DNA of 64,000 nt from Linnemannia hyalina (taxonomy: Eukaryota; Mortierellomycota; Mortierellomycetes; Mortierellales; Mortierellaceae): the NCBI GenBank assembly GCA_019671135.1, contig JAHRHY010000032.1, positions 1 to 64,000 on the forward strand, given 5' to 3'. Position 1 is the stretch's first letter. Each line of letters starts with the position of its first letter. The notes beneath the pieces were generated by a model. The model ran no database searches. It saw nothing but the letters and a program-made list of their open reading frames with translations, and was not told the DNA's origin. A program made the position numbers and the translations under genes. Positions 6,095 to 61,103 of this stretch are shown here, piece after piece.

Positions 6095-6589
6095 GCGGCC
6101 CCTTCATGTGCAGAGGATATAAAAAGGCATATAAAAAATATCCAAAGCCCAAGGAACGGAGTGTTTACTTCCATAACTGACATATCTCTTCATAGTGGGC
6201 AACAGAACACAGAATAAAATAGCAATAGACAGCACAAGAATTTTTAAAATGTAATCTCTCCCCTGTATTTCGCCCCAAAGATACAGTTGAGAGTACAAGT
6301 GCTTTAGATGATGACATACAAGAACTACTCTGGCGAATCTTGCAGTGAGGGTTACAGGTTAATAGTAGATGGACATATTCAAGAGTGTGGTGTGCGAAAA
6401 ATAAGAAGACTTTGTTGTTTGGAGAATAGGTTGGTGTTTAGTAGGATAGTTAAACAAAAAATGTTACAATGGTTGTCTTATATGCTTGGTATCATATATA
6501 CATTCTCATCCCATAGTCGCTATGGATATTGTCGAGATCTACAGAGATGTAACAAACACCATATGATAACTTGGACCTGAAAGGCCTCC
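6095..6589. repeat. E2 left terminal direct repeat (495 bp)
   Basis: Starts GCGGCCCCTTCA and ends TGAAAGGCCTCC. The two ends are imperfect inverted repeats (about 13 of 20 positions). E2-type variants include the CCCATAGTCGC segment near the right end. No convincing gene. Confidence 0.85.
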
Positions 6590-6863: not shown

Positions 6864-7358
6864 GCGGCCCCTTCATGTGCAGAGGATATAAAAAGGCATA
6901 TAAAAAATATCCAAAGTCCAAGGAACGGAGTGTTGACTTCCATAACTGGCATATCTCTTCATAGTGGGCAACAGAACACAGAATAAAATAGCAATAGACA
7001 GCACAAGAATTTTTAAAATGTAATCTCTCCCCTGTATTTCACGACAAAGATACAGTTGAGAATACAAGTGCTTTAGATGATCACATACAAGAACTACTCT
7101 GTCGAATCTTGCAGTGAGGGTTACAGTTTAATAGTAGATGGACATATTCAAGAGTTTGGTGTGCGAAAAATAAGAAGACTTTGTTGTTTGGAGAATGTAG
7201 TTGTGTTTAGTAGGATAATCGCGCAAGGAATGTTACAGTGGTTGTTTTAAATGGTTGATATCATACATACACTCTCCTCTAATGGACGCGGTGGATATCG
7301 TCAAGATCTGCAGAGATGTAACAAACACCATATGATAATTTGGACTTGAAAGGCCTCC
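6864..7358. repeat. E1 left terminal direct repeat (495 bp)
   Basis: Matches the E1 right repeat (11861-12355) at all variant sites checked, including the E1/E4-type segment with GAGAATGTAGTTGTG and AATCGCGCAAGG. Ends are GCGG...CCTCC. Confidence 0.87.
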
Positions 7359-7481
7359 TAGGTGGAAGTGTCGAAGACATGTTACATTTTTAAAAAGTTC
7401 ATGCTATATATACAACCACAAATGCCAACTGTTGACAATTGGATAGTTTTTAAAATATCTACTCTTCATCTGTCTCAACAA

Positions 7482-9728
7482 CTACCAAAACTTTACATCT
7501 GGAGAGTACAATTTAGGCAATTCCTCGATCGTGAACCCCATGGCAATTAACTTCTGCTTTTGTTTGTTGTTGGTAAATTTGTCTCGACTATAGTTACTGT
7601 CACCGTTTGCAGGTATCTTATACAGCAGTCCAACAATAATGTCCTCTTCGTACCTCTTGAGCAGATGACATCCGTCGAAAAGGTAGTTGGTTGCATATTC
7701 ATGCTTCTTGTCAAACGAACATGTTGTCCATTTAATTTCGTCTTTATCTATGACGATTATACCCGAGGAGCTTTTATCTTTAGGGTACCTTTTCCACATA
7801 ACATCCTCAGCATCTTTATCATCCTCAGCATCTTTATCATCTTCAGCATCGTTATCACCCTCAGCATCTTTGTCATCCTCAGCATCGTTATCACCCTCAG
7901 CATCTTTGTCATCTTCAGCATCTTTATCACCCACCGCATCTTTGTCATCCTCAGCATCTTTATCGCCCTCAGCATCTTTATCATCCTCACATGTGCTCTC
8001 ATCTTTCTGTGGCAAGCTTTGCTTATGCTCATGCGGTTTAAATCCCATAGCAAACAACTTCTCTTTTTCCTTCTGGCTAAGAGAATGACACTCTACATTC
8101 TCTGCAGCAATATGGTCATCAGTCATCAAGCCGATTACAGTGTCTTTTTTGCGCATCTTGAGAATGTGCATTCCATTTACAAGTACATTCTCGGAATATT
8201 CCAAGTACTTGTTAAGTTTTTTCCATATCACCTTGGATTTATCTGTTGGTCCTTCTACTGGTACTTCTTCTTCTACTTCGATCTCCTCGTTGAAAAGCGT
8301 CTTTCTCTCTTCATCAGACAATGGTTGAAGTTTCATCTTGCTAAGCATGGAGCGTTCCAAGATATCCAACTCTGGAACATCACCGACACCGCGCAGAGCA
8401 TCAAGCGTAAACAGGCCAACGTATGTATTCTTTCCAGATAGCCTGACAATGTACTTGCCATTCATCGTAAACTTAGTTGCATACTCAAGCATGTCGTTAT
8501 TAGGATGAATCATCCATCCTCTGTCCTTCGCACGTGCTATGTCTTTCTCTGATCTAATGTTATGCACCGTTGTGGCCAGTGCAAATGTATGTTCATCTTT
8601 TCCATCCTTAGAAACGTCTACATTAGAAGATGGCTCTGCATTTTTGGGCATCTCTGAATGCCTTTTCTTTCGAGAAGTCTTCTTCTCATCATCCTTAGAT
8701 GACTTTTTATGAGATAGTTTTTCATCAGGGTTATCCTTAGAGGTATCATCTCCAGATTCTACATCAGGTCTGTTATTGGACTTGCCATCATCAGAGTCTT
8801 TATCATCAGGGGAATCATCGTCAGAGCCAGCATCATCAGACGTATCACCATCATCTGTATCATCGTCAGAATTCTCATCAGCAGAAGACTCTTCTATTTT
8901 TTCTACATCAGCAGGAGTTGCCTCTTGGAGTCCCATCTTTTGTAATATACGTACCTCTTTGTCAGATAATTTCGGTACAGGAAGATTTTTCCCCATGAGC
9001 TCAGGTGGACACAATACAATGTAGAGGTCCTTTTCCTTCAGCTTAATAATGTACTTGCCATTTACAGTATAGTTTTTTGCATACAGGAAAGCTGGATTAG
9101 TTGCATAACGCATCCATATGCCTGTATTAGCGAGTGGTACATTTTTCTTGGACGTTATGTCAACTACCTTTGGACTCAACGGAAAGGAGACGGCAATTAT
9201 ATCTTCTTCATCATCATCGGACGGCTCCTCATCCGATGACTCCTGCTTGTTTCTCTTTCGCTTCTTTGGTTCTTCATCCTCGGAAGTCATATCATCATCT
9301 GAAGGGACAAACTCAGGAGTATGTGTCTTCTTGGTTATCTTGGAAGACTTGGTACGCTTGTTGGCAGGTGCCTTATTGTTACTGCTTTTCATATGACCTT
9401 TATGCTGCTCTCGATGACGTCCACAGTATGTTTCACCAAGTTTGGCTACACTACCACAATTAGCGCCCTTAATGGTTGTGCCTTGACACTTGCGCGCAGG
9501 ATCGTGGACATAACAATGCATGCCTTCATCATCAACTTCCTTCATGCATTTGCGCTTGGACTTGGTGCACTTTGCACCACAAAAGTAGTATCTCTCTACT
9601 CCCTCATCCTCATCAAGCGCCTTAAAGATCTTATTTGCATCTTTCTTGGTAAACTCCACTCCCTTCTTAGAAGAAAATGTCTCGAAGGCCTTGGTGATGA
9701 GCTCGATTGTAAGCTGAACGTACTGCAT
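7482..9728 (-). CDS. E1 P1: acidic protein with Cys/His modules and four repeat domains
   Basis: 748 residues from ATG at 9728. Order: N-terminal region (1-45); two cysteine-histidine modules with Cys 50, 54, 61, 72, His 75 and Cys 81, 91, 102, His 105, probably zinc-binding and similar in spacing to small C-C-C-H modules seen in many viral and plant proteins; a KKRKRN nuclear-localisation-like patch (155-160); then four copies of a roughly 65-residue module (about 203-268, 403-467, 500-564, 665-735). Each copy has an early Trp, a YA/YS step, NGKYI-like core, a hydrophobic VGL strand and a closing MGF/MGL. Acidic linkers and a DKDAE hexapeptide array separate them. It lies downstream of the transposase and likely assists it, for example by binding DNA. 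I do not recognise the repeat family; function is unknown. Confidence 0.8.
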   Translation of the reverse strand: MQYVQLTIELITKAFETFSSKKGVEFTKKDANKIFKALDEDEGVERYYFCGAKCTKSKRKCMKEVDDEGMHCYVHDPARKCQGTTIKGANCGSVAKLGETYCGRHREQHKGHMKSSNNKAPANKRTKSSKITKKTHTPEFVPSDDDMTSEDEEPKKRKRNKQESSDEEPSDDDEEDIIAVSFPLSPKVVDITSKKNVPLANTGIWMRYATNPAFLYAKNYTVNGKYIIKLKEKDLYIVLCPPELMGKNLPVPKLSDKEVRILQKMGLQEATPADVEKIEESSADENSDDDTDDGDTSDDAGSDDDSPDDKDSDDGKSNNRPDVESGDDTSKDNPDEKLSHKKSSKDDEKKTSRKKRHSEMPKNAEPSSNVDVSKDGKDEHTFALATTVHNIRSEKDIARAKDRGWMIHPNNDMLEYATKFTMNGKYIVRLSGKNTYVGLFTLDALRGVGDVPELDILERSMLSKMKLQPLSDEERKTLFNEEIEVEEEVPVEGPTDKSKVIWKKLNKYLEYSENVLVNGMHILKMRKKDTVIGLMTDDHIAAENVECHSLSQKEKEKLFAMGFKPHEHKQSLPQKDESTCEDDKDAEGDKDAEDDKDAVGDKDAEDDKDAEGDNDAEDDKDAEGDNDAEDDKDAEDDKDAEDVMWKRYPKDKSSSGIIVIDKDEIKWTTCSFDKKHEYATNYLFDGCHLLKRYEEDIIVGLLYKIPANGDSNYSRDKFTNNKQKQKLIAMGFTIEELPKLYSPDVKFW
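7803..7982 (-). repeat. 18-bp tandem repeat encoding the DKDAE array in E1 P1
   Basis: About ten 18-bp units encode a run of acidic hexapeptides (residues about 583-642) with D/N, E/G and A/V changes. The same array is in E3 (about 39751-39930) and E4 (about 56558-56737) and is absent from the E2 variant. Confidence 0.85.
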
Positions 9729-10448
9729 GTTTTTGGATATGAACGATATAGATTGTACTTGTGGTATGGTGGGTGTGAATGAGCTTTCAGTTTATGTGTG
9801 GTAGATTGCAGCTGCTTAGTACACTGATATAAAGAATTGCAATAAAAGATGGTTGTATAGGTATGGATGGTTGTATAGATATGGATAATGGTTGGTTGGT
9901 TACTAGATAAGATAAAGATTAAGCAAGAGGGAAGTGGAGTCCTTTATTTATACTAATTCATGGGACACTGCCACACTGGATATTAATAGCGCTTGCTTAT
10001 TAACACTGCTTGGCGCTTAGTAACAAAAGAGTTTTAAAAAGGCATCTAAGTGGTTAATAACGTAGTGTTCCTCGTATGACGTAGATCTTGCTTATTAAGA
10101 CTGCTTGGCGTTAAAGACGGGGTTTAAAAATGGTTAAGAATGTAGTATTCTTTTATGACGTAGGTTTGTACATGTGTTTATGTATTCTTTTATGACGTAG
10201 GTTTGTACATGTGTTTATCCTCTTTGTTAAATAAAAAGGAATGTTGTAGAATAGCATAGAATAGCATCCGATCTACTACAATAATACCATGACTTTTAAT
10301 AATAGATACCGGTGCATATTAGCGTCTAGGCAGTTAATACCGTATCTCAACGCTGACTAAATAGGCTATGTATGTCTATTCTTTTAAAAACCTGCAATAA
10401 GTCTACAAATTACCATTAACATCCATTTGTCGCTTCGTACTACGTACC
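9729..10448 (-). other. E1 intergenic region upstream of P1
   Basis: 720 bp without a gene between transposase stop and P1 start. It contains the P1 TATA box and a perfect 37-bp tandem duplication (10145-10181 and 10182-10218). E2 has a single copy of that 37-mer. Confidence 0.7.
9945..9952 (-). promoter_or_regulatory. TATA box of E1 P1
   Basis: TATAAATA on the minus strand, 217 bp before the P1 ATG. The same box is at 41893-41900 in E3 and 58700-58707 in E4. Confidence 0.5.
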
Positions 10449-11789
10449 TCAAAGCGCAATGGAAAGACCGGGTTGCATTATTACTGCTTGATCCATTGGT
10501 GTGTCCTCATCAACATTAACATCAACATCACCATGAAGATTAATACCAAGAAATTTGTTCTGGAGTTGTGCCATTGTATTTCCATCCTCCACTAGCGCAC
10601 CAACATCAACATATCCCATTGGTTGCTCAACGTCGTTCTCTGTTGTCGGATACTCGAATCCTTCGCGAAGCCAAGCTGTATGAATTGGTTCTGCAGAAAT
10701 CTTCAACAAAGCAACCATCTTTTTCATGTTTAAGAGTAACAAAGATAACTTCAACTGCAAATTATATGTTTGTTTCTTATCCACCAACACAGGAGTACGG
10801 TTGTTGTGTTTCTCAAATGTGGAACCAAGGTCTGCAAACAGAGATTCCATCTGCGAGCGGAAACTACCAAAGGTGGTATTGTATAACGCTTCTTCCTGTG
10901 TAAGTTCCTTGTTCTTCTGTTTACGGTATGGATGAGCGAAATTTTGGACTCTAAGAATATCAGACTCATCTATAAGCCTCCTTAAGAACTGTGGATACCC
11001 TCCATCGAGAGCAATGCAATCCATCTCATGCACTCTCTTGTCCAACTTCATCGTTAGCAGCATTGTTCCATCAGCATTGTTCTTGCAAGATGCAGATTTG
11101 GAGACAAATAAAGCCATGCCATTACAATCCATTGCTACCTGTGTGCGTAATCCTGACTTTTTCAGCTTGTAAGAGTACATATCAGCACTACTCTCACCTT
11201 TGTATGTTGCTCTTGTATCATGACCATCAAGATGCAATGTAACATGCTTAAATAATGGAGGATTCTTTTCCTTTGCAGACAAAAGGCGTATTTTAATTGT
11301 GGAGAACATTGTTGCAATACAGTTGGTGATGTACTTGTTGTGCAAAGTATATTCTTTCTTATAAAACACAGAGTGCATTGCATGAAAACTACTTTTTGGC
11401 ATGTGTGGTTCCATTGCTTCCATAGACAGTCCTTTGACAAGATGATAGAGCATTAAAAGACCTTTCTCCACTTCTTTGTATGGACCAGGATACTTAACCT
11501 TTGGCCAGATGTCAACAAGAAAGAAGTACACTGGAATAGGACCAAGGCGTCGATTTAGGGTTTCTTTTATTTCTGGCATATACCCAATTTCCTTGCTTAC
11601 AGTACGATGATTATTACGTGGTGTAATTGTTGGCCATCCAGCGTTGAGGAAAGTCCAATGGTCATCAAGCAGTTGTTGGAAGTGTTTTGTTAGATCCATA
11701 ATAATATTTATGTATTGGATTGTCATGACGTTAACCAACAATAACAATTTTTTAAAAAGGCTTATACTTAACTGTATACACAACAGCAT
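10449..11789 (-). CDS. E1 DDE transposase
   Basis: 446 residues. The candidate catalytic triad follows the DDE_Tnp_4 (Harbinger/IS5-like) pattern: Asp in LHLDGHD, Asp in ALDGGYP, and Glu in SQMESLF, with 52 residues between the second and third. An HTH-like N-terminal half precedes it. The first ATG (11789) follows a TATA-like stretch (11838-11852) by about 50 bp; in-frame ATGs at 11726 and 11699 are alternatives, since the first 21 residues are unusually hydrophobic. The C-terminus is 13 residues shorter than in E4 because of a net 7-nt gain near 10435-10445. Presumed to cut GCGG...CCTCC ends and insert at TNN. Confidence 0.82.
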   Translation of the reverse strand: MLLCIQLSISLFKKLLLLVNVMTIQYINIIMDLTKHFQQLLDDHWTFLNAGWPTITPRNNHRTVSKEIGYMPEIKETLNRRLGPIPVYFFLVDIWPKVKYPGPYKEVEKGLLMLYHLVKGLSMEAMEPHMPKSSFHAMHSVFYKKEYTLHNKYITNCIATMFSTIKIRLLSAKEKNPPLFKHVTLHLDGHDTRATYKGESSADMYSYKLKKSGLRTQVAMDCNGMALFVSKSASCKNNADGTMLLTMKLDKRVHEMDCIALDGGYPQFLRRLIDESDILRVQNFAHPYRKQKNKELTQEEALYNTTFGSFRSQMESLFADLGSTFEKHNNRTPVLVDKKQTYNLQLKLSLLLLNMKKMVALLKISAEPIHTAWLREGFEYPTTENDVEQPMGYVDVGALVEDGNTMAQLQNKFLGINLHGDVDVNVDEDTPMDQAVIMQPGLSIAL

Positions 11790-11860
11790 GTAGGATGGTA
11801 TCTATCATACAGCAAGCACATAGTTGAGAATACAAATATATTTTTATATTTTATTCGGTA
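11790..11860 (-). promoter_or_regulatory. E1 transposase promoter region
   Basis: The 71 bp between right terminal repeat and transposase ATG. On the minus strand it carries a TATAAAAATATAT stretch 50-60 bp before the ATG. Equivalents are at 43738-43808 (E3) and 60538-60608 (E4). Confidence 0.45.
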
Positions 11861-12355
11861 GCGGCCCCTTCATGTGCAGAGGATATAAAAAGGCATATAA
11901 AAAATATCCAAAGTCCAAGGAACGGAGTGTTGACTTCCATAACTGGCATATCTCTTCATAGTGGGCAACAGAACACAGAATAAAATAGCAATAGACAGCA
12001 CAAGAATTTTTAAAATGTAATCTCTCCCCTGTATTTCACGACAAAGATACAGTTGAGAATACAAGTGCTTTAGATGATCACATACAAGAACTACTCTGTC
12101 GAATCTTGCAGTGAGGGTTACAGTTTAATAGTAGATGGACATATTCAAGAGTTTGGTGTGCGAAAAATAAGAAGACTTTGTTGTTTGGAGAATGTAGTTG
12201 TGTTTAGTAGGATAATCGCGCAAGGAATGTTACAGTGGTTGTTTTAAATGGTTGATATCATACATACACTCTCCTCTAATGGACGCGGTGGATATCGTCA
12301 AGATCTGCAGAGATGTAACAAACACCATATGATAATTTGGACTTGAAAGGCCTCC
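11861..12355. repeat. E1 right terminal direct repeat (495 bp)
   Basis: Same orientation as the left repeat and of the same sequence type. It lies upstream of both genes. Confidence 0.87.
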
Positions 12356-12358
12356 TAA

Positions 12359-16914: not shown

Positions 16915-16927
16915 AAAAAAAAATCCG

Positions 16928-22842: not shown

Positions 22843-22913
22843 GTAGGATGGTATCTATCATATAGCAAGCATATAGTTGAGAATACAAATATATTTTTAT
22901 ATTTTATTCGGTA

Positions 22914-23408
22914 GCGGCCCCTTCATGTGCAGAGGATATAAAAAGGCATATAAAAAATATCCAAAGCCCAAGGAACGGAGTGTTTACTTCCATAACTGAC
23001 ATATCTCTTCATAGTGGGCAACAGAACACAGAATAAAATAGCAATAGATAGCAAATGTTTTTTTAAAATGTAATCTCTCCCCTGTATTTCGCCCCAAAGA
23101 TACAGTTGAGAGTACAAGTGCTTTAGATGATGACATACAAGAACTACTCTGGCGAATCTTGCAGTGAGGGTTACAGGTTAATAGTAGATGGACATATTCA
23201 AGAGTGTGGTGTGCGAAAAATAAGAAGACTTTGTTGTTTGGAGAATAGGTTGGTGTTTAGTAGGATAGTTAAACAAAAAATGTTACAATGGTTGTCTTAT
23301 ATGCTTGGTATCATATATACATTCTCATCCCATAGTCGCTATGGATATTGTCGAGATCTACAGAGATGTAACAAACACCATATGATAACTTGGACCTGAA
23401 AGGCCTCC
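22914..23408. repeat. E2 right terminal direct repeat (495 bp)
   Basis: E2-type variants as in 6095-6589, with one divergent patch near 23046 (GATAGCAAATG against GACAGCACAAG). It is followed by TTA and then an inverted E5 repeat, not by Penelope-like DNA. Confidence 0.84.
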
Positions 23409-24414
23409 TTAGCTATCCTACTAACCACCATGATATTCTTCAAACAACAAAGTCTTCTTATTTTTTGCACACCAATCTCTTGAATGTCTCCATCTACTAT
23501 TAAACTGTACCCATCACTGCGAGATTAAGGGGAGTAGTTCTTGTATGTGATCATCTAAAGCACCTATACTCTCAACTGTATCTTTGTCATGAAATACAAG
23601 GGAGAGATTACATTTTAAAAAATCTTGTGCTGTCTATTGCTATTTTATTCCGTGTTCTGTTGCCCACTAAAAAGAGATATGTCAGCTATGGAAGTCAACA
23701 CTCCGTTCCTTGGGCTTTGGATATTTTTATATGCCTTTTTATATTCTCTGCACATGAAGGGGCCGCTACCGAAAAAAATATAAAAATATATTTGTATTCT
23801 CAACTATGTGCTTGCTGTAAGATAGATACCATCCTACATGCTCTTGTATATGCAGTTAAGTATGAGCCTTTTTAAAAAATTGTTATTGTTGGTTAACGTC
23901 ATGACAATCCAATACATAAATATTATTATGGCTCTAACAAAACACTTCAAACAACTGCTTGATGACCATTGGACTTTCCTCAACGCTGGATGGCCAACAA
24001 TTACACCACGTAATAATCATCGTACTGTAAGCAAGGAAATCGGGTTTATGCCACAAATAAAAGAAACCCTAAATCGACGCCTTGGACCTATTCCAGTGTA
24101 CTTCTTTCTTATTGATATCTGGCCAAAGGTTAAGTATCCTGGTCCATACAAAGAAGTGGAGAAAGGTCTTTTAATGCTCTATCATCTTGTCAAAGGACTG
24201 TCTATGGAAGCAATGGAACCACACATGCCAAAAAGTAGTTTTCATGCAATGCACTCTGTGTTTTATAAGAAAGAATATACTTTACACAATAAGTACATCA
24301 CCAACTGTATTGCAACAATGTTCTCCACAATTACAATATGCCTATTGTCTGCAAAGAAAAAGAATCCTCCATTATTTAAGCATGTCACATTGCATCTTGA
24401 TGGTCATGATACAA
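23409..24414 (+). mobile_element. Element E5: inverted fragment
   Basis: An E element in opposite orientation. A partial inverted terminal repeat (23412-23766) is cut by E2; the start of the transposase gene follows on the plus strand; E6 cuts it at 24414. More diverged than E1-E4. Confidence 0.78.
23838..24414 (+). pseudogene. E5 transposase N-terminal fragment
   Basis: About 192 codons matching E1 up to LDGHDT with several substitutions, then it runs into the E6 terminal repeat. The second Asp and the Glu are missing. Confidence 0.82.
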
Positions 24415-24907
24415 GCAGCCCCTTCATGTGCAGAGGATATAAAAAGGCATATAAGAATATCCAAAGCCCAAGGAACGGAGTGTTGACTTCCATAGCTGAC
24501 ATATCTCTTTTTAATGGGCAACAGAACACGGAATAAAATAGCAATAGACAGCACAAGATTTTTTAAAATGTAATCTCTCCCTTGTATTTCATGACAAAGA
24601 TACAGTTGAGAGTATAGGTGCTTTAGATGATCACATACAAGAACTACTCCCCTTAATCTCGCAGTGATGGGTACAGTTTAATAGTAGATGGAGACATTCA
24701 AGAGATTGGTGTGCAAAAAATAAGAAGACTTTGTTGTTTGAAGAATATCATGGTGTTTAGTAGGATAGTAAACAAAAAATGTCACAATGGTTGTCTTACA
24801 TGCTTGGTATCATATATACATTCTCATCTCATAGTCGCTATGGATATCGTCGAGATCTACAGAGATGTAGCAAACACCATATGATAATTTGGACGTGAAA
24901 GGCCTCC
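24415..24907. repeat. E6 left terminal direct repeat (493 bp)
   Basis: The most diverged plus-oriented unit; shares variants with the inverted E5 repeat (for example AGGTGCTTTAGATG, ACTCCCCTTAATCTC), indicating an older subfamily. Confidence 0.8.
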
Positions 24908-35535: not shown

Positions 35536-35541
35536 TTTCCC
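35496..35541 (-). promoter_or_regulatory. -1 ribosomal frameshift signal, chromovirus B
   Basis: Slippery GGGAAAA at 35535-35541, 5-nt spacer, 9-bp hairpin 35521-35529 with 35496-35504; same as in A. Confidence 0.8.
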
Positions 35542-36512: not shown

Positions 36513-36716
36513 GACTGGTAGTGCAGAGAGAAGTGCGGAGAGGTCAAAAATGTCCAGAGTGTAAGAGGGTACGAAGGAAAATAGGGGCAGGGAATGAAAT
36601 TCAGGGCTGGTGTGCAGAGAGAGCTGGGACGAGGGAAAATTAAAGTAAAACGCGGGCAGTGAAAACGAGGAGGGAAAAATCAAGAGGTCAGTGGAACGAG
36701 GGAACCTTTGCTACCA

Positions 36717-38118: not shown

Positions 38119-38811
38119 GAGCTGTATAACAAATCTCCAAATGATCCTCTGCTATCCCCTATTACTATTCCAATTACTCTTCACTTCCAAAACTCCTCAC
38201 TACCAGTCCATGCAATGATCGACTCAGGAGCAACCATCTCATTCATTCATCAAAATCTAGCACAACAGCACAATCTTCCACTAGCACAACACTTATTACA
38301 AATCTCTCTTGCCAATGGTTCAACACATACCTCTCATCACGCCACCATATTGGTTATGCAATCCCACTCACAACACTTTTCTACACACACTTTTCAACTC
38401 ATTGCACTTGGCAATTATGCCATTATTCTTGGCATGGACTGGCTCCGCTCACACAACCCATATATCGACTGGGAGAAACGAACCATTACTATGCCATGCC
38501 TCCATCAGCACACACTCGACAAGCTTTCCCCCCTTGCACAATCAACAATGCCTCGATCCATCCCTTCCTTCCAGGAACAAGACCGAATCCTTCTGCCACC
38601 TTCCAAACCCAAATCCACTTTGGTTCCCACCAAGTACACCTCAGGATCCAACCAACTATCCAAATCCGCCAAGAACCGATCAGCAACCAACATCTCCATT
38701 ATTAGCAATACACAACTCCGTCAGATCCTCAAGACCAATCAAGGAGTCGGATACATGTTCGACGTCTCCCGAATCGAAGAACTCGCCAGCGCAACCACCA
38801 ACGACAACTCT
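38080..38811 (+). pseudogene. Chromovirus D pol, protease part
   Basis: Open in the -1 frame from about 38071. The aspartic protease has the canonical MIDSGATISF and a second conserved patch IILGMDWL. It ends at NDNS where E3 entered (duplication TCT) and resumes at 44307 as IPES. Confidence 0.88.
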
Positions 38812-39306
38812 GCGGCCCCTTCATGTGCAGAGGATATAAAAAGGCATATAAAAAATATCCAAAGTCCAAGGAACGGAGTGTTGACTTCCATAACTGGCAT
38901 ATCTCTTCATAGTGGGCAACAGAACACAGAATAAAATAGCAATAGACAGCACAAGAATTTTTAAAATGTAATCTCTCCCCTGTATTTCACGACAAAGATA
39001 CAGTTGAGAATACAAGTGCTTTAGATGATCACATACAAGAACTACTCTGTCGAATCTTGCAGTGAGGGTTACAGGTTAATAGTAGATGGACATATTCAAG
39101 AGTTTGGTGTGCGAAAAATAAGAAGACTTTGTTGTTTGGAGAATAGGTTGGTGTTTAGTAGGATAGTTAAACAAAAAATGTTACAATGGTTGTCTTATAT
39201 GCTTGGTATCATATATACATTCTCCTCTAATGGACGCGGTGGATATCGTCAAGATCTGCAGAGATGTAACAAACACCATATGATAATTTGGACTTGAAAG
39301 GCCTCC
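38812..39306. repeat. E3 left terminal direct repeat (495 bp)
   Basis: E1-type at both ends, E2-type between about 39072 and 39222 (TTACAGGTTAATAG, GAATAGGTTGGTG, AGTTAAACAAAAAATG). The right repeat shows the same switch points. Confidence 0.87.
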
Positions 39307-39429
39307 TAGGTGGAAGTGTCGAAGACATGTTACATTTTTAAAAAGTTCATGCTATATATACAACCACAAATGCCAACTGTTGACAATTGGATAGTTTTTA
39401 AAATATCTACTCTTCATCTGTCTCAACAA

Positions 39430-41676
39430 CTACCAAAACTTTACATCTGGAGAGTACAATTTAGGCAATTCCTCGATCGTGAACCCCATGGCAATTAACT
39501 TCTGCTTTTGTTTGTTGTTGGTAAATTTGTCTCGACTATAGTTACTGTCACCGTTTGCAGGTATCTTATACAGCAGTCCAACAATAATGTCCTCTTCGTA
39601 CCTCTTGAGCAGATGACATCCGTCGAAAAGGTAGTTGGTTGCATATTCATGCTTCTTGTCAAACGAACATGTTGTCCATTTAATTTCGTCTTTATCTATG
39701 ACGATTATACCCGAAGAGCTTTTATCTTTAGGGTACCTTTTCCACATAACATCCTCAGCATCTTTATCATCCTCAGCATCTTTATCATCTTCAGCATCGT
39801 TATCACCCTCAGCATCTTTGTCATCCTCAGCATCGTTATCACCCTCAACATCTTTGTCATCTTCAGCATCTTTATCACCCACCGCATCTTTGTCATCCTC
39901 AGCATCTTTATCGCCCTCAGCATCTTTATCATCCTCACATGTGCTCTCATCTTTCTGTGGCAAGCTTTGCTTATGCTCATGCGGTTTAAATCCCATAGCA
40001 AACAACTTCTCTTTTTCCTTCTGGCTAAGAGAATGACACTCTACATTCTCTGCAGCAATATGGTCATCAGTCATCAAGCCGATTACAGTGTCTTTTTTGC
40101 GCATCTTGAGAATGTGCATTCCATTTACAAGTACATTCTCGGAATATTCCAAGTACTTGTTAAGTTTTTTCCATATCACCTTGGATTTATCTGTTGGTCC
40201 TTCTACTGGTACTTCTTCTTCTACTTCGATCTCCTCGTTGAAAAGCGTCTTTCTCTCTTCATCAGACAATGGTTGAAGTTTCATCTTGCTAAGCATGGAG
40301 CGTTCCAAGATATCCAACTCTGGAACATCACCGACACCGCGCAGAGCATCAAGCGTAAACAGGCCAACGTATGTATTCTTTCCAGATAGCCTGACAATGT
40401 ACTTGCCATTCATCGTAAACTTAGTTGCATACTCAAGCATGTCGTTATTAGGATGAATCATCCATCCTCTGTCCTTCGCACGTGCTATGTCTTTCTCTGA
40501 TCTAATGTTATGCACCGTTGTGGCCAGTGCAAATGTATGTTCATCTTTTCCATCCTTAGAAACGTCTACATTAGAAGATGGCTCTGCATTTTTGGGCATC
40601 TCTGAATGCCTTTTCTTTCGAGAAGTCTTCTTCTCATCATCCTTAGATGACTTTTTATGAGATAGTTTTTCATCAGGGTTATCCTTAGAGGTATCATCTC
40701 CAGATTCTACATCAGGTCTGTTATTGGACTTGCCATCATCAGAGTCTTTATCATCAGGGGAATCATCGTCAGAGCCAGCATCATCAGACGTATCACCATC
40801 ATCTGTATCATCGTCAGAATTCTCATCAGCAGAAGACTCTTCTATTTTTTCTACATCAGCAGGAGTTGCCTCTTGGAGTCCCATCTTTTGTAATATACGT
40901 ACCTCTTTGTCAGATAATTTCGGTACAGGAAGATTTTTCCCCATGAGCTCAGGTGGACACAATACAATGTAGAGGTCCTTTTCCTTCAGCTTAATAATGT
41001 ACTTGCCATTTACAGTATAGTTTTTTGCATACAGGAAAGCTGGATTAGTTGCATAACGCATCCATATGCCTGTATTAGCGAGTGGTACATTTTTCTTGGA
41101 CGTTATGTCAACTACCTTTGGACTCAACGGAAAGGAGACGGCAATTATATCTTCTTCATCATCATCGGACGGCTCCTCATCCGATGACTCCTGCTTGTTT
41201 CTCTTTCGCTTCTTTGGTTCTTCATCCTCGGAAGTCATATCATCATCTGAAGGGACAAACTCAGGAGTATGTGTCTTCTTGGTTATCTTGGAAGACTTGG
41301 TACGCTTGTTGGCAGGTGCCTTATTGTTACTGCTTTTCATATGACCTTTATGCTGCTCTCGATGACGTCCACAGTATGTTTCACCAAGTTTGGCTACACT
41401 ACCACAATTAGCGCCCTTAATGGTTGTGCCTTGACACTTGCGCGCAGGATCGTGGACATAACAATGCATGCCTTCATCATCAACTTCCTTCATGCATTTG
41501 CGCTTGGACTTGGTGCACTTTGCACCACAAAAGTAGTATCTCTCTACTCCCTCATCCTCATCAAGCGCCTTAAAGATCTTATTTGCATCTTTCTTGGTAA
41601 ACTCCACTCCCTTCTTAGAAGAAAATGTCTCGAAGGCCTTGGTGATGAGCTCGATTGTAAGCTGAACGTACTGCAT
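39430..41676 (-). CDS. E3 P1: acidic protein with Cys/His modules and four repeat domains
   Basis: 748 residues, nearly identical to E1 P1; one visible change is Ala to Val in the DKDAE array (DKDVE). Same Cys/His modules (residues 50-105), KKRKRN patch and four repeat modules. Intact frame. TATA box at 41893-41900. Function unknown; presumed partner of the transposase. Confidence 0.8.
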   Translation of the reverse strand: MQYVQLTIELITKAFETFSSKKGVEFTKKDANKIFKALDEDEGVERYYFCGAKCTKSKRKCMKEVDDEGMHCYVHDPARKCQGTTIKGANCGSVAKLGETYCGRHREQHKGHMKSSNNKAPANKRTKSSKITKKTHTPEFVPSDDDMTSEDEEPKKRKRNKQESSDEEPSDDDEEDIIAVSFPLSPKVVDITSKKNVPLANTGIWMRYATNPAFLYAKNYTVNGKYIIKLKEKDLYIVLCPPELMGKNLPVPKLSDKEVRILQKMGLQEATPADVEKIEESSADENSDDDTDDGDTSDDAGSDDDSPDDKDSDDGKSNNRPDVESGDDTSKDNPDEKLSHKKSSKDDEKKTSRKKRHSEMPKNAEPSSNVDVSKDGKDEHTFALATTVHNIRSEKDIARAKDRGWMIHPNNDMLEYATKFTMNGKYIVRLSGKNTYVGLFTLDALRGVGDVPELDILERSMLSKMKLQPLSDEERKTLFNEEIEVEEEVPVEGPTDKSKVIWKKLNKYLEYSENVLVNGMHILKMRKKDTVIGLMTDDHIAAENVECHSLSQKEKEKLFAMGFKPHEHKQSLPQKDESTCEDDKDAEGDKDAEDDKDAVGDKDAEDDKDVEGDNDAEDDKDAEGDNDAEDDKDAEDDKDAEDVMWKRYPKDKSSSGIIVIDKDEIKWTTCSFDKKHEYATNYLFDGCHLLKRYEEDIIVGLLYKIPANGDSNYSRDKFTNNKQKQKLIAMGFTIEELPKLYSPDVKFW

Positions 41677-42396
41677 GTTTTTGGATATGAACGATATAGA
41701 TTGTACTTGTGGTATGGTGGGTGTGAATGAGCTTTCAGTTTATGTGTGGTAGATTGCAGCTGCTTAGTACACTGATATAAAGAATTGCAATAAAAGATGG
41801 TTGTATAGGTATGGATGGTTGTATAGATATGGATAATGGTTGGTTGGTTACTAGATAAGATAAAGATTAAGCAAGAGGGAAGTGGAGTCCTTTATTTATA
41901 CTAATTCATGGGACACTGCCACACTGGATATTAATAGCGCTTGCTTATTAACACTGCTTGGCGCTTAGTAACAAAAGAGTTTTAAAAAGGCATCTAAGTG
42001 GTTAATAACGTAGTGTTCCTCGTATGACGTAGATCTTGCTTATTAAGACTGCTTGGCGTTAAAGACGGGGTTTAAAAATGGTTAAGAATGTAGTATTCTT
42101 TTATGACGTAGGTTTGTACATGTGTTTATGTATTCTTTTATGACGTAGGTTTGTACATGTGTTTATCCTCTTTGTTAAATAAAAAGGAATGTTGTAGAAT
42201 AGCATAGAATAGCATCCGATCTACTACAATAATACCATGACTTTTAATAATAGATACCGGTGCATATTAGCGTCTAGGCAGTTAATACCGTATCTCAACG
42301 CTGACTAAATAGGCTATGTATGTCTATTCTTTTAAAAACCTGCAATAAGTCTACAAATTACCATTAACATCCATTTGTCGCTTCGTACTACGTACC

Positions 42397-43737
42397 TCAA
42401 AGCGCAATGGAAAGACCGGGTTGCATTATTACTGCTTGATCCATTGGTGTGTCCTCATCAACATTAACATCAACATCACCATGAAGATTAATACCAAGAA
42501 ATTTGTTCTGGAGTTGTGCCATTGTATTTCCATCCTCCACTAGCGCACCAACATCAACATATCCCATTGGTTGCTCAACGTCGTTCTCTGTTGTCGGATA
42601 CTCGAATCCTTCGCGAAGCCAAGCTGTATGAATTGGTTCTGCAGAAATCTTCAACAAAGCAACCATCTTTTTCATGTTTAAGAGTAACAAAGATAACTTC
42701 AACTGCAAATTATATGTTTGTTTCTTATCCACCAACACAGGAGTACGGTTGTTGTGTTTCTCAAATGTGGAACCAAGGTCTGCAAACAGAGATTCCATCT
42801 GCGAGCGGAAACTACCAAAGGTGGTATTGTATAACGCTTCTTCCTGTGTAAGTTCCTTGTTCTTCTGTTTACGGTATGGATGAGCGAAATTTTGGAGTTT
42901 AAGAGTATCAGACTCATCTATAAGCCTCCTTAAGAACTGTGGATACCCTCCATCGAGAGCAATGCAATCCATCTCATGCACTCTCTTGTCCAACTTCATC
43001 GTTAGCAGCATTGTTCCATCAGCATTGTTCTTGCAAGATGCAGATTTGGAGACAAATAAAGCCATGCCATTACAATCCATTGCTACCTGTGTGCGTAATC
43101 CTGACTTTTTCAGCTTGTAAGAGTACATATCAGCACTACTCTCACCTTTGTATGTTGCTCTTGTATCATGACCATCAAGATGCAATGTAACATGCTTAAA
43201 TAATGGAGGATTCTTTTCCTTTGCAGACAAAAGGCGTATTTTAATTGTGGAGAACATTGTTGCAATACAGTTGGTGATGTACTTGTTGTGCAAAGTATAT
43301 TCTTTCTTATAAAACACAGAGTGCATTGCATGAAAACTACTTTTTGGCATGTGTGGTTCCAATGCTTCCATAGACAGTCCTTTGACAAGATGATAGAGCA
43401 TTAAAAGACCTTTCTCCACTTCTTTGTATGGACCAGGATACTTAACCTTTGGCCAGATGTCAACAAGAAAGAAGTACACTGGAATAGGACCAAGGCGTCG
43501 ATTTAGGGTTTCTTTTATTTCTGGCATATACCCAATTTCCTTGCTTACAGTACGATGATTATTACGTGGTGTAATTGTTGGCCATCCAGCGTTGAGGAAA
43601 GTCCAATGGTCATCAAGCAGTTGTTGGAAGTGTTTTGTTAGATCCATAATAATATTTATGTATTGGATTGTCATGACGTTAACCAACAATAACAATTTTT
43701 TAAAAAGGCTTATACTTAACTGTATACACAACAGCAT
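42397..43737 (-). CDS. E3 DDE transposase
   Basis: 446 residues with the candidate triad of E1 (HLDGHD, ALDGGYP, SQMESLF). Differs from E1 at a few residues (EALEPH, DTLKLQN). It has the same shortened C-terminus, so E1 and E3 share the 7-nt gain. Intact. Confidence 0.82.
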   Translation of the reverse strand: MLLCIQLSISLFKKLLLLVNVMTIQYINIIMDLTKHFQQLLDDHWTFLNAGWPTITPRNNHRTVSKEIGYMPEIKETLNRRLGPIPVYFFLVDIWPKVKYPGPYKEVEKGLLMLYHLVKGLSMEALEPHMPKSSFHAMHSVFYKKEYTLHNKYITNCIATMFSTIKIRLLSAKEKNPPLFKHVTLHLDGHDTRATYKGESSADMYSYKLKKSGLRTQVAMDCNGMALFVSKSASCKNNADGTMLLTMKLDKRVHEMDCIALDGGYPQFLRRLIDESDTLKLQNFAHPYRKQKNKELTQEEALYNTTFGSFRSQMESLFADLGSTFEKHNNRTPVLVDKKQTYNLQLKLSLLLLNMKKMVALLKISAEPIHTAWLREGFEYPTTENDVEQPMGYVDVGALVEDGNTMAQLQNKFLGINLHGDVDVNVDEDTPMDQAVIMQPGLSIAL

Positions 43738-43808
43738 GTAGGATGGTATCTATCATACAGCAAGCACATAGTTGAGAATACAAATATATTTTTATATTTT
43801 ATTCGGTA

Positions 43809-44303
43809 GCGGCCCCTTCATGTGCAGAGGATATAAAAAGGCATATAAAAAATATCCAAAGTCCAAGGAACGGAGTGTTGACTTCCATAACTGGCATATC
43901 TCTTCATAGTGGGCAACAGAACACAGAATAAAATAGCAATAGACAGCACAAGAATTTTTAAAATGTAATCTCTCCCCTGTATTTCACGACAAAGATACAG
44001 TTGAGAATACAAGTGCTTTAGATGATCACATACAAGAACTACTCTGTCGAATCTTGCAGTGAGGGTTACAGGTTAATAGTAGATGGACATATTCAAGAGT
44101 TTGGTGTGCGAAAAATAAGAAGACTTTGTTGTTTGGAGAATAGGTTGGTGTTTAGTAGGATAGTTAAACAAAAAATGTTACAATGGTTGTCTTATATGCT
44201 TGGTATCATATATACATTCTCCTCTAATGGACGCGGTGGATATCGTCAAGATCTGCAGAGATGTAACAAACACCATATGATAATTTGGACTTGAAAGGCC
44301 TCC
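43809..44303. repeat. E3 right terminal direct repeat (495 bp)
   Basis: Same mosaic as the left repeat (E2-type tract about 44069-44219). Confidence 0.87.
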
Positions 44304-44306
44304 TCT

Positions 44307-55618: not shown

Positions 55619-56113
55619 GCGGCCCCTTCATGTGCAGAGGATATAAAAAGGCATATAAAAAATATCCAAAGTCCAAGGAACGGAGTGTTGACTTCCATAA
55701 CTGGCATATCTCTTCATAGTGGGCAACAGAACACAGAATAAAATAGCAATAGACAGCACAAGAATTTTTAAAATGTAATCTCTCCCCTGTATTTCACGAC
55801 AAAGATACAGTTGAGAATACAAGTGCTTTAGATGATCACATACAAGAACTACTCTGTCGAATCTTGCAGTGAGGGTTACAGTTTAATAGTAGATGGACAT
55901 ATTCAAGAGTTTGGTGTGCGAAAAATAAGAAGACTTTGTTGTTTGGAGAATGTAGTTGTGTTTAGTAGGATAATCGCGCAAGGAATGTTACAGTGGTTGT
56001 TTTAAATGGTTGATATCATACATACACTCTCCTCTAATGGACGCGGTGGATATCGTCAAGATCTGCAGAGATGTAACAAACACCATATGATAATTTGGAC
56101 TTGAAAGGCCTCC
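55619..56113. repeat. E4 left terminal direct repeat (495 bp)
   Basis: E1-type throughout and matching 60609-61103. Confidence 0.87.
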
Positions 56114-56236
56114 TAGGTGGAAGTGTCGAAGACATGTTACATTTTTAAAAAGTTCATGCTATATATACAACCACAAATGCCAACTGTTGACAATTGGATA
56201 GTTTTTAAAATATCTACTCTTCATCTGTCTCAACAA

Positions 56237-58483
56237 CTACCAAAACTTTACATCTGGAGAGTACAATTTAGGCAATTCCTCGATCGTGAACCCCATGGCA
56301 ATTAACTTCTGCTTTTGTTTGTTGTTGGTAAATTTGTCTCGACTATAGTTACTGTCACCGTTTGCAGGTATCTTATACAGCAGTCCAACAATAATGTCCT
56401 CTTCGTACCTCTTGAGCAGATGACATCCGTCGAAAAGGTAGTTGGTTGCATATTCATGCTTCTTGTCAAACGAACATGTTGTCCATTTAATTTCGTCTTT
56501 ATCTATGACGATTATACCCGAGGAGCTTTTATCTTTAGGGTACCTTTTCCACATAACATCCTCAGCATCTTTATCATCCTCAGCATCTTTATCATCTTCA
56601 GCATCGTTATCACCCTCAGCATCTTTGTCATCCTCAGCATCGTTATCACCCTCAGCATCTTTGTCATCTTCAGCATCTTTATCACCCACCGCATCTTTGT
56701 CATCCTCAGCATCTTTATCGCCCTCAGCATCTTTATCATCCTCACATGTGCTCTCATCTTTCTGTGGCAAGCTTTGCTTATGCTCATGCGGTTTAAATCC
56801 CATAGCAAACAACTTCTCTTTTTCCTTCTGGCTAAGAGAATGACACTCTACATTCTCTGCAGCAATATGGTCATCAGTCATCAAGCCGATTACAGTGTCT
56901 TTTTTGCGCATCTTGAGAATGTGCATTCCATTTACAAGTACATTCTCGGAATATTCCAAGTACTTGTTAAGTTTTTTCCATATCACCTTGGATTTATCTG
57001 TTGGTCCTTCTACTGGTACTTCTTCTTCTACTTCGATCTCCTCGTTGAAAAGCGTCTTTCTCTCTTCATCAGACAATGGTTGAAGTTTCATCTTGCTAAG
57101 CATGGAGCGTTCCAAGATATCCAACTCTGGAACATCACCGACACCGCGCAGAGCATCAAGCGTAAACAGGCCAACGTATGTATTCTTTCCAGATAGCCTG
57201 ACAATGTACTTGCCATTCATCGTAAACTTAGTTGCATACTCAAGCATGTCGTTATTAGGATGAATCATCCATCCTCTGTCCTTCGCACGTGCTATGTCTT
57301 TCTCTGATCTAATGTTATGCACCGTTGTGGCCAGTGCAAATGTATGTTCATCTTTTCCATCCTTAGAAACGTCTACATTAGAAGATGGCTCTGCATTTTT
57401 GGGCATCTCTGAATGCCTTTTCTTTCGAGAAGTCTTCTTCTCATCATCCTTAGATGACTTTTTATGAGATAGTTTTTCATCAGGGTTATCCTTAGAGGTA
57501 TCATCTCCAGATTCTACATCAGGTCTGTTATTGGACTTGCCATCATCAGAGTCTTTATCATCAGGGGAATCATCGTCAGAGCCAGCATCATCAGACGTAT
57601 CACCATCATCTGTATCATCGTCAGAATTCTCATCAGCAGAAGACTCTTCTATTTTTTCTACATCAGCAGGAGTTGCCTCTTGGAGTCCCATCTTTTGTAA
57701 TATACGTACCTCTTTGTCAGATAATTTCGGTACAGGAAGATTTTTCCCCATGAGCTCAGGTGGACACAATACAATGTAGAGGTCCTTTTCCTTCAGCTTA
57801 ATAATGTACTTGCCATTTACAGTATAGTTTTTTGCATACAGGAAAGCTGGATTAGTTGCATAACGCATCCATATGCCTGTATTAGCGAGTGGTACATTTT
57901 TCTTGGACGTTATGTCAACTACCTTTGGACTCAACGGAAAGGAGACGGCAATTATATCTTCTTCATCATCATCGGACGGCTCCTCATCCGATGACTCCTG
58001 CTTGTTTCTCTTTCGCTTCTTTGGTTCTTCATCCTCGGAAGTCATATCATCATCTGAAGGGACAAACTCAGGAGTATGTGTCTTCTTGGTTATCTTGGAA
58101 GACTTGGTACGCTTGTTGGCAGGTGCCTTATTGTTACTGCTTTTCATATGACCTTTATGCTGCTCTCGATGACGTCCACAGTAAGTTTCACCAAGTTTGG
58201 CTACACTACCACAATTAGCGCCCTTAATGGTTGTGCCTTGACACTTGCGCGCAGGATCGTGGACATAACAATGCATGCCTTCATCATCAACTTCCTTCAT
58301 GCATTTGCGCTTGGACTTGGTGCACTTTGCACCACAAAAGTAGTATCTCTCTACTCCCTCATCCTCATCAAGCGCCTTAAAGATCTTATTTGCATCTTTC
58401 TTGGTAAACTCCACTCCCTTCTTAGAAGAAAATGTCTCGAAGGCCTTGGTGATGAGCTCGATTGTAAGCTGAACGTACTTCAT
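56237..58483 (-). CDS. E4 P1: acidic protein with Cys/His modules and four repeat domains
   Basis: 748 residues, starting MKYVQL (E1 and E3 have MQYVQL; E2 has MKYVQL, so Lys is probably ancestral). Cys/His modules, KKRKRN patch, four repeat modules and the DKDAE array match E1. Intact. TATA box at 58700-58707. Confidence 0.8.
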   Translation of the reverse strand: MKYVQLTIELITKAFETFSSKKGVEFTKKDANKIFKALDEDEGVERYYFCGAKCTKSKRKCMKEVDDEGMHCYVHDPARKCQGTTIKGANCGSVAKLGETYCGRHREQHKGHMKSSNNKAPANKRTKSSKITKKTHTPEFVPSDDDMTSEDEEPKKRKRNKQESSDEEPSDDDEEDIIAVSFPLSPKVVDITSKKNVPLANTGIWMRYATNPAFLYAKNYTVNGKYIIKLKEKDLYIVLCPPELMGKNLPVPKLSDKEVRILQKMGLQEATPADVEKIEESSADENSDDDTDDGDTSDDAGSDDDSPDDKDSDDGKSNNRPDVESGDDTSKDNPDEKLSHKKSSKDDEKKTSRKKRHSEMPKNAEPSSNVDVSKDGKDEHTFALATTVHNIRSEKDIARAKDRGWMIHPNNDMLEYATKFTMNGKYIVRLSGKNTYVGLFTLDALRGVGDVPELDILERSMLSKMKLQPLSDEERKTLFNEEIEVEEEVPVEGPTDKSKVIWKKLNKYLEYSENVLVNGMHILKMRKKDTVIGLMTDDHIAAENVECHSLSQKEKEKLFAMGFKPHEHKQSLPQKDESTCEDDKDAEGDKDAEDDKDAVGDKDAEDDKDAEGDNDAEDDKDAEGDNDAEDDKDAEDDKDAEDVMWKRYPKDKSSSGIIVIDKDEIKWTTCSFDKKHEYATNYLFDGCHLLKRYEEDIIVGLLYKIPANGDSNYSRDKFTNNKQKQKLIAMGFTIEELPKLYSPDVKFW

Positions 58484-59157
58484 GTTTTTGGATATGAACG
58501 ATATAGATTGTACTTGTGGTATGGTGGGTGTGAATGACTTTTCAGTTTATGTGTGGTAGATTGCAGCTGCTTAGTACACTGATATAAAGAATTGCAATAA
58601 AAGATGGATGTATAGGTATGGATGGTTGTATAGATATGGATAATGGTTGGTTGGTTACTAGATAAGATAAAGATTAAGCAAGAGGGAAGTGGAGTCCTTT
58701 ATTTATACTAATTCATGGGACACTGCCACACTGGATATTAATAGCGCTTGCTTATTAACACTGCTTGGCGCTTAGTAACAAAAGAGTTTTAAAAAGGCAT
58801 CTAAGTGGTTAATAACGTAGTGTTCCTCGTATGACGTAGATCTTGCTTATTAAGACTGCTTGGCGTTAAAGACGGGGTTTAAAAATGGTTAAGAATGTAG
58901 TATTCTTTTATGACGTAGGTTTGTACATGTGTTTATGTATTCTTTTATGACGTAGGTTTGTACATGTGTTTATCCTCTTTGTTAAATAAAAAGGAATGTT
59001 GTAGAATAGCATAGAATAGCATCCGATCTACTACAATAATACCATGACTTTTAATAATAGATACCGGTGCATATTAGCGTCTAGGCAGTTAATACCGTAT
59101 CTCAACGCTGACTAAATAGGCTATGTATGTCTATTCTTTTAAAAACCTGCAATAAGT

Positions 59158-60537
59158 CTACAAATTACCATTAACATCCATTTGTCGCTTCGTACCTCTA
59201 AGCTCAATGGAAAGACCGGGTTGCATTATTACTGCTTGATCCATTGGTGTGTCCTCATCAACATTAACATCAACATCACCATGAAGATTAATACCAAGAA
59301 ATTTGTTCTGGAGTTGTGCCATTGTATTTCCATCCTCCACTAGCGCACCAACATCAACATATCCCATTGGTTGCTCAACGTCGTTCTCTGTTGTCGGATA
59401 CTCGAATCCTTCGCGAAGCCAAGCTGTATGAATTGGTTCTGCAGAAATCTTCAACAAAGCAACCATCTTTTTCATGTTTAAGAGTAACAAAGATAACTTC
59501 AACTGCAAATTATATGTTTGTTTCTTATCCACCAACACAGGAGTACGGTTGTTGTGTTTCTCAAATGTGGAACCAAGGTCTGCAAACAGAGATTCCATCT
59601 GCGAGCGGAAACTACCAAAGGTGGTATTGTATAACGCTTCTTCCTGTGTAAGTTCCTTGTTCTTCTGTTTACGGTATGGATGAGCGAAATTTTGGACTCT
59701 AAGAATATCAGACTCATCTATAAGCCTCCTTAAGAACTGTGGATACCCTCCATCGAGAGCAATGCAATCCATCTCATGCACTCTCTTGTCCAACTTCATC
59801 GTTAGCAGCATTGTTCCATCAGCATTGTTCTTGCAAGATGCAGATTTGGAGACAAATAAAGCCATGCCATTACAATCCATTGCTACCTGTGTGCGTAATC
59901 CTGACTTTTTCAGCTTGTAAGAGTACATATCAGCACTACTCTCACCTTTGTATGTTGCTCTTGTATCATGACCATCAAGATGCAATGTAACATGCTTAAA
60001 TAATGGAGGATTCTTTTCCTTTGCAGACAAAAGGCGTATTTTAATTGTGGAGAACATTGTTGCAATACAGTTGGTGATGTACTTGTTGTGCAAAGTATAT
60101 TCTTTCTTATAAAACACAGAGTGCATTGCATGAAAACTACTTTTTGGCATGTGTGGTTCCATTGCTTCCATAGACAGTCCTTTGACAAGATGATAGAGCA
60201 TTAAAAGACCTTTCTCCACTTCTTTGTATGGACCAGGATACTTAACCTTTGGCCAGATGTCAACAAGAAAGAAGTACACTGGAATAGGACCAAGGCGTCG
60301 ATTTAGGGTTTCTTTTATTTCTGGCATATACCCAATTTCCTTGCTTACAGTACGATGATTATTACGTGGTGTAATTGTTGGCCATCCAGCGTCAAGGAAA
60401 GTCCAATGGTCATCAAGCAGTTGTTGGAAGTGTTTTGTTAGATCCATAATAATATTTATGTATTGGATTGTCATGACGTTAACCAACAATAACAATTTTT
60501 TAAAAAGGCTTATACTTAACTGTATACACAACAGCAT
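59158..60537 (-). CDS. E4 DDE transposase, full-length C-terminus
   Basis: 459 residues; candidate triad HLDGHD, ALDGGYP, SQMESLF. It ends VNGNL as in E2, whereas E1 and E3 end early in SIAL. It also has Asp for Asn in TFLDAGWP. Intact, and the best reference for the family. Confidence 0.84.
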   Translation of the reverse strand: MLLCIQLSISLFKKLLLLVNVMTIQYINIIMDLTKHFQQLLDDHWTFLDAGWPTITPRNNHRTVSKEIGYMPEIKETLNRRLGPIPVYFFLVDIWPKVKYPGPYKEVEKGLLMLYHLVKGLSMEAMEPHMPKSSFHAMHSVFYKKEYTLHNKYITNCIATMFSTIKIRLLSAKEKNPPLFKHVTLHLDGHDTRATYKGESSADMYSYKLKKSGLRTQVAMDCNGMALFVSKSASCKNNADGTMLLTMKLDKRVHEMDCIALDGGYPQFLRRLIDESDILRVQNFAHPYRKQKNKELTQEEALYNTTFGSFRSQMESLFADLGSTFEKHNNRTPVLVDKKQTYNLQLKLSLLLLNMKKMVALLKISAEPIHTAWLREGFEYPTTENDVEQPMGYVDVGALVEDGNTMAQLQNKFLGINLHGDVDVNVDEDTPMDQAVIMQPGLSIELRGTKRQMDVNGNL

Positions 60538-60608
60538 GTAGGATGGTATCTATCATACAGCAAGCACATAGTTGAGAATACAAATATATTTTTATATTTT
60601 ATTCGGTA

Positions 60609-61103
60609 GCGGCCCCTTCATGTGCAGAGGATATAAAAAGGCATATAAAAAATATCCAAAGTCCAAGGAACGGAGTGTTGACTTCCATAACTGGCATATC
60701 TCTTCATAGTGGGCAACAGAACACAGAATAAAATAGCAATAGACAGCACAAGAATTTTTAAAATGTAATCTCTCCCCTGTATTTCACGACAAAGATACAG
60801 TTGAGAATACAAGTGCTTTAGATGATCACATACAAGAACTACTCTGTCGAATCTTGCAGTGAGGGTTACAGTTTAATAGTAGATGGACATATTCAAGAGT
60901 TTGGTGTGCGAAAAATAAGAAGACTTTGTTGTTTGGAGAATGTAGTTGTGTTTAGTAGGATAATCGCGCAAGGAATGTTACAGTGGTTGTTTTAAATGGT
61001 TGATATCATACATACACTCTCCTCTAATGGACGCGGTGGATATCGTCAAGATCTGCAGAGATGTAACAAACACCATATGATAATTTGGACTTGAAAGGCC
61101 TCC
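60609..61103. repeat. E4 right terminal direct repeat (495 bp)
   Basis: E1-type throughout, same as the left repeat. Confidence 0.87.

Follow-up and report, generated by a model that had tools for sequence, protein, structure and literature searches.

A putative composite-like DDE transposon family with alike terminal direct repeats in the fungus Linnemannia hyalina

Results

The 64-kb stretch of DNA from Linnemannia hyalina (Mortierellomycota) that we analysed, hereafter the window, holds at positions 38812-44303 an element named E3. BLAST and direct reading of the sequence divide E3 into three parts. The first is a left terminal direct repeat of 495 bp (R, 38812..39306, plus strand), the second is an interior of 4502 bp (INT), and the third is a right R, also of 495 bp and on the plus strand (43809..44303), with 100% identity to the left one. 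R starts with GCGGCCCCTTCA and ends with TGAAAGGCCTCC, an imperfect inverted pair in which 8 of 12 positions match as counted by eye. The element is bordered by the target-site duplication TCT, read from the sequence at 38809..38811 on the left and at 44304..44306 on the right, and empty copies of this site are present at loci L022 and L016. INT comprises two long open reading frames (ORFs) on the minus strand, of 446 and 748 amino acid residues counted from the first ATG, which correspond to a predicted DDE transposase (42397..43737) and to a partner protein (39430..41676), respectively. An earlier, sequence-only reading of the window had described this arrangement, two genes between 495-bp direct repeats with imperfect inverted ends on each repeat, for E3 and for two further copies, E1 (6864..12355, plus strand) and E4 (55619..61103, plus strand). 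The same plan was recovered here, and the R units are identical inside each copy. E3 can be described as a complete copy, active in recent times, of a family of composite-like DDE transposons with the plan R-INT-R, in which R carries the transposon ends and INT the transposase and its partner.

In a profile search the E3 transposase matched the Pfam model DDE_Tnp_4 with an E-value of 1.5e-7 and 31.6 bits, the cut-off being 24.8, which confirms the proposed DDE_Tnp_4 character of the protein. The same model is matched by 52 of 52 aligned transposases, the window's own included. Catalytic-type D/D/E residues are invariant in all 52 proteins; these are D192, D195, D266 and E319, in the numbering of the 450-residue stop-to-stop ORF. 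The C/DxxH motif of Kolobok, sought between the second D and the last E, was present in none of the 52. The partner protein has a Cys/His (zinc-like) N-terminal region, acidic linkers and four repeats of about 70 residues, and no Pfam match above its cut-off. Among the Pfam matches at E<=1 for nine partner-type proteins there is no Myb model (Myb/SANT), in agreement with the suggestion that the partner is not Myb-like, and no nuclease model. Foldseek matched the partner to pithovirus proteins, three of them named HNH endonuclease, with E-values of 0.005-0.017 and probabilities of 0.99-1.00 but with template-modelling (TM) scores of at most 0.20. Neither element gene gave a Pfam match to reverse transcriptase or to any other domain of retroelements. 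The ORFs are intact in 19 of 19 chosen copies, which shows that intact copies exist and not their proportion, and the partner varies from 672 to 754 residues across these 19 copies. A short in-frame acidic repeat (DDKDAE-type) is found in the partner gene at window positions 39747-39953 and at the equivalent positions of other copies.

All copy counts refer to one genome assembly of L. hyalina. A pattern count gave 343 R units with exact 11-bp ends in this genome and none for the reversed control pattern; the R family is therefore not a product of chance. With one mismatch allowed, the right junction (TTCGGTA followed by R) occurs at 123 places and the left junction (R followed by TAGGTG) at 127, the reversed controls again giving none. 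Since 343 R units stand against 123 and 127 junctions, roughly a quarter of the R units, or more, have no attached interior. Among 100 listed left junctions, 58 have a same-strand right junction 3.5-5.6 kb away (59 were counted, one of them false), and 41 have no listed right junction in range, the junction lists being incomplete.

Individual copies were sampled by DNA searches of the same genome, which gave the best 40 of 493-497 R candidates and the best 40 of 253 transposase candidates; the sample, taken from these best-40 match lists, is non-random. Full-length R accounted for 121 of the 134 R matches in the sampled DNA. The other 13 were dropped, as were four duplicate loci, and the false pair C26:6095-12355, made of the left R of a further copy, E2, and the right R of E1, was excluded from the pair counts. 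The sample then contained 36 full pairs of left and right R, of which 28 have a matching 3-bp duplication. It also contained 34 solo R units, 19 of them with matching duplications (17 distinct sites), so that the solo 495-bp units anticipated from the window do occur across the genome. The sequence-only reading had held that copies without the second repeat would speak against the family. Twenty-eight copies keep both repeats together with matching duplications, but single-sided copies do exist: loci L016 and L020, for example, show the right R only, and some others end at the edge of the sampled stretch. Tandem (R-INT)n junctions, with interior on both sides of an R, number at least seven when the first 100 places in the list for each junction type are considered. 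These seven lie on contigs C5, C6, C8, C12, C13, C19 and C23 of the assembly (G000), six of them no further than about 15 kb from the end of a contig, a position that suggests either arrays in subtelomeric regions or long arrays in which the assembly broke off.

After removal of 2 of 47 sites, which had repeated flanks, 45 distinct insertion sites remained. For 18 of them (17 of 28 full copies and 1 of 17 solos), the part of the genome that was compared also contains the empty site, ungapped and at >=97% identity. Together, the empty sites and the duplications show that the whole of R-INT-R is inserted in one piece and makes a 3-bp duplication, and that a solo R can occupy a once-empty site. 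One solo R lies inside the partner gene of another copy, and the empty form of that site exists. The target shows an extended palindromic preference: at the 45 sites, a C stands directly before the duplication (position -4) in 30, a G directly after it (position +1) in 29, and the middle base is A or T in 43. The duplication had been proposed to be a TNN triplet at every clean insertion. Its length of 3 bp stands, with TAA at E1, TCT at E3 and TGA at E4, whereas the TNN rule does not, the first base being T in 16 of the 28 full copies with matching duplication. The commonest triplet is ATA (6 of 28).

The two R units of a single copy are strikingly alike. In the 28 full copies with matching duplications, left and right R differ by no substitution in 24 copies, by one in two, by two in one and by 19 in one. 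However, the same 28 copies carry 15 left-R haplotypes, between which the median distance is 24 substitutions and the largest 51. Summed over the 28 copies, the left-right substitutions amount to 23, whereas 10,000 random re-pairings gave 515 on average and never fewer than 222. The mean distance between R units is 19.4 for left-left comparisons, 18.7 for right-right comparisons and 19.0 for left and right units of different copies, and it is 0.8 within a copy; there is no separate left-R or right-R lineage. The copies of the window give an example: the interiors of E1 and E3 are 0.13% apart and their R units 4.0% apart, with the changes present in both R units of E1. The R pairs of E1 and E3 differ mainly by one tract, with one difference near column 264 and the rest in the tract of about 334-409, and the R pair of E4 is identical to that of E1. 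What is new here is that the two R units are identical or nearly so in duplication-flanked copies, whatever haplotype they carry. Since this likeness holds despite the diversity of haplotypes, both R units of a copy appear to go back to a single R that existed at, or not long before, the time of insertion. They thus seem to derive from one template, like the long terminal repeats (LTRs) of a retroelement.

Irregular arrangements of the same family were also found. These include inverted R pairs around interior pieces, and 12 R ends without matching duplication that directly adjoin internal positions of the family, inverted in some cases. The abutting ends are a hint of end-specific but irregular events, although nested recombination could also make such joints. 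In two places, G000:C35:15171-15935 (L021) and window positions 22914-23766, the right end of a full R meets an inverted truncated R in an exact joint, near position 270 or 359 of the latter, which gives a palindrome. These palindromic joints resemble products of one-ended or sister-chromatid transposition, or of nested recombination.

The second of these joints belongs to E2, which spans positions 6095-23408 of the window and is interrupted by E1, located in its interior, and by a retroelement that encodes reverse transcriptase, integrase and a chromodomain. The left R of E2 (6095..6589, plus strand) and its right R (22914..23408, plus strand) have no matching duplication, and the right end abuts position 359 of the inverted R. 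This inverted R is part of a truncated copy on the minus strand (23409..24414) that consists of R positions 1-359 and 648 bp of interior. It is followed by a diverged R on the plus strand (24415..24907, 90.7% identity to that of E3) and then by a second interior type (TAGGTGAATG). Two retroelement copies, at 16928-22041 and 31597-36710, have identical ORF lengths of 1318 and 398 residues. The tested copy of this pair, the one inside E2, has reverse transcriptase, RNase H, integrase and chromodomain and was read as Ty3-like. E3 itself lies at the start of the pol-like ORF (reverse transcriptase, RNase H, integrase, chromodomain) of another such retroelement (44295-47282), and it is this site that is empty in L022 and L016.

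Elsewhere in the genome there is a second abundant family of DDE_Tnp_4-type transposases, for example at G000 C12:1914207-1915430, with at least 47 near-full rows and 80-82% identity to a Linnemannia elongata protein. The gene model P0124 (KI688_011876) fuses a transposase like that of the second family with the partner protein of the R-INT-R family, and the fusion probably spans a nested insertion. A stretch of 845 bp at L089:358-1202, with 116-bp inverted arms (89%) that overlap two 281-bp direct copies spaced 413 bp apart, is perhaps a separate small element.

Discussion

By its transposase, duplication length and target preference, the L. hyalina family can be classed as PIF/Harbinger-related. 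It shares with PIF/Harbinger (PHIS) elements the DDE_Tnp_4 transposase, 3-bp A/T-rich duplications, an extended target preference and a second element protein. It differs from them in having long terminal direct repeats, solo repeats and tandem arrays, and in a partner without a Myb/SANT match; Harbinger-related families without a Myb partner are described in the consulted part of PMC12730594. The LTR-like layout, which the sequence-only reading had taken as the sign of an undescribed system, is confirmed and is foreign to canonical PIF/Harbinger. However, the plan itself has already been described for KolobokP, a group of animal DNA transposons (Kojima and Bao 2022; PMC9587614). According to the part of that account used here, KolobokP elements have a repeat-interior-repeat plan, solos and (repeat-INT)n multimers, usually with duplications. 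Their repeats, of about 450 or 660 bp, have short inverted ends of their own, and the interior encodes two proteins in most families. The authors there regard the group as unlike any other DNA transposon and discuss a translocatable-unit circle, with the pathway left open; this part of the account contains no comparison of the two repeats within one copy.

Long terminal direct repeats with their own inverted ends, solos and multimers are thus common to KolobokP and to the L. hyalina family. The differences lie in the proteins, the termini and the host. The C/DxxH motif given in the consulted part of PMC9587614 is absent from the DDE_Tnp_4 transposases of L. hyalina (0/52), which makes this family a case separate from KolobokP. 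KolobokP termini are 5'-RR...YY-3', while those in L. hyalina are 5'-GC...CC-3', so that the 5' end deviates and the 3' end agrees. The partner is a His-Me finger nuclease in KolobokP and a protein in which no nuclease domain was recognised in L. hyalina, and the hosts of KolobokP are animals, not a fungus. In the literature searched we found no published description of the R-INT-R family of L. hyalina, nor any described repeat family with the same genes and ends. On its genes and ends, the family is best classified as a composite-like lineage of DDE transposons in its own right, with a fungus as host.

Terminal direct repeats that are alike within each copy, and solo repeats with duplications, are also features of LTR retrotransposons. 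The L. hyalina element differs from these in its own DDE transposase and in the inverted ends on each repeat, and no reverse transcriptase was found in it. With the bacterial IS26 family (IS6/IS26), as treated in the available part of PMC6952201, it shares donor DNA between direct copies, a target duplication on the outside and single copies with duplications, which recombination would produce. IS26 differs in having the transposase inside the repeat and a duplication of 8 bp, whereas in L. hyalina the transposase is in the interior and the duplication is 3 bp. In the same source, IS26 copy-in duplicates both the insertion sequence (IS) and the target, and a single IS with duplications is considered likely to come from recombination of a cointegrate. 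Both products have their counterparts in L. hyalina.

We consider most likely, at an even chance, a mechanism of this kind, in which IS26-like copy-in of a circle with one R makes R-INT-R and solo R is left by recombination. Recombination between two R units would free an R-INT circle with a single R, and a solo R would stay behind. On the circle, the transposase would then nick R at its 3' ends and join these to the target with a 3-bp stagger. Replication of R by the host would place INT between two identical R units, and the resulting R-INT-R copy would equal a cointegrate in the IS26 or Tn3 sense. The observed basis is formed by the 3-bp duplications on insertion, the solo R units with duplications, the tandem (R-INT)n arrays and the R units that are alike within each copy. 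The pattern of likeness expected if the repeat is duplicated at insertion is present in the sequences, and it is from this pattern that we infer the reaction.

Several points weigh against this copy-in. Thirteen of the 28 pairs were fetched via R coordinates from similarity lists, which favours like pairs; for this reason the re-pairing test was rerun on the 15 copies reached via the transposase gene or located in the window. In these copies, which have 7 haplotypes, left and right R differ by no substitution in 13, by one in one and by two in one, and the sum of 3 compares with a re-pairing mean of 188 and a minimum of 27. The copy at C10:1299846 has a matching duplication and 19 left-right differences, all in the tract 334-409. 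Three of 8 copies without matching duplication also have identical R units, the others differing by 1, 5, 6, 9 and 12 substitutions. The larger differences are mostly clustered in tracts; R units therefore recombine or convert, and such exchange alone could make pairs alike. Finally, in the portion of PMC2836001 consulted, those PIF/Harbinger elements that have been characterised transpose by excising, as a rule precisely.

The last two points lead to the main rival, cut-and-paste of the whole R-INT-R from its outer ends, with the R units kept alike by gene conversion or single-strand annealing before or after movement. The outer ends are inverted as this mechanism needs, and the tract-like differences show that sequence is exchanged among R units. 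However, homogenisation would have to cover all 495 bp in 24 of 28 copies, with haplotypes up to 51 substitutions apart, and half-converted intermediates are few (one tract case in 28). Moreover, identical pairs are commoner among copies with matching duplications than among those without (24/28 against 3/8, Fisher p 0.013). We regard this explanation as possible but rather unlikely.

Entry of an R-INT circle into a resident solo R by homologous recombination (the KolobokP model, Fig. 5b1), the duplications being inherited from the solo, is improbable as the general route. Solo R units with duplications exist, the tandem arrays need some step of that kind, and C10:1299846, the sole duplication-flanked copy with clearly unlike R units, fits it. 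A single crossover, however, yields unlike R units whenever resident and circle differ, and 24 of 28 copies have identical ones. R could also be an independent miniature inverted-repeat transposable element (MITE) moved by a Harbinger-like transposase, two such MITEs flanking the genes by chance. R has inverted ends of its own, the solo copies have duplications, and one solo was inserted in the partner gene at a site with a known empty form. This idea is nevertheless very improbable in view of the fixed inner junctions (123 and 127 places), the pairing of 58 of 100 listed left junctions with a right junction on the same strand, and the likeness of R per copy. Least probable of all is RNA-mediated copying of an LTR-type element that borrows the reverse transcriptase of other elements. 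Per-copy likeness, solos and uninterrupted ORFs do resemble LTR elements. However, neither gene has a retroelement domain, the termini read GC...CC where an LTR element would have TG...CA, and beside the left R the two interior types have little in common except TAGGTG, so that no conserved primer site is seen. The element also encodes a DDE transposase of its own, in which the D/D/E residues are conserved.

Copy-in of a one-R circle has a wider form, to which we give slightly less than an even chance: a eukaryotic transposon living by copy-in cointegration. The repeats would be the true transposon, replicated at each insertion, and the transposase genes would be passenger DNA on a one-repeat circle released by recombination, with a solo left behind. 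To our knowledge there is no eukaryotic precedent for such a lifestyle, and none was found in the literature searched.

The R-INT-R plan is now known from two superfamilies of transposases, one in animals and the other in a fungus. How two repeats persist when one repeat can leave alone is a question left open for KolobokP in the consulted part of PMC9587614. The L. hyalina family bears on it from sequence, as the R units of one copy are alike whatever their haplotype, and its many near-identical copies make the circle and copy-in model testable. If this model is true, copy-in cointegration would, together with KolobokP, be a general mode open to eukaryotic DDE transposons, and DNA transposons that have solo repeats, and whose terminal repeats are alike, may pass wrongly for LTR elements.
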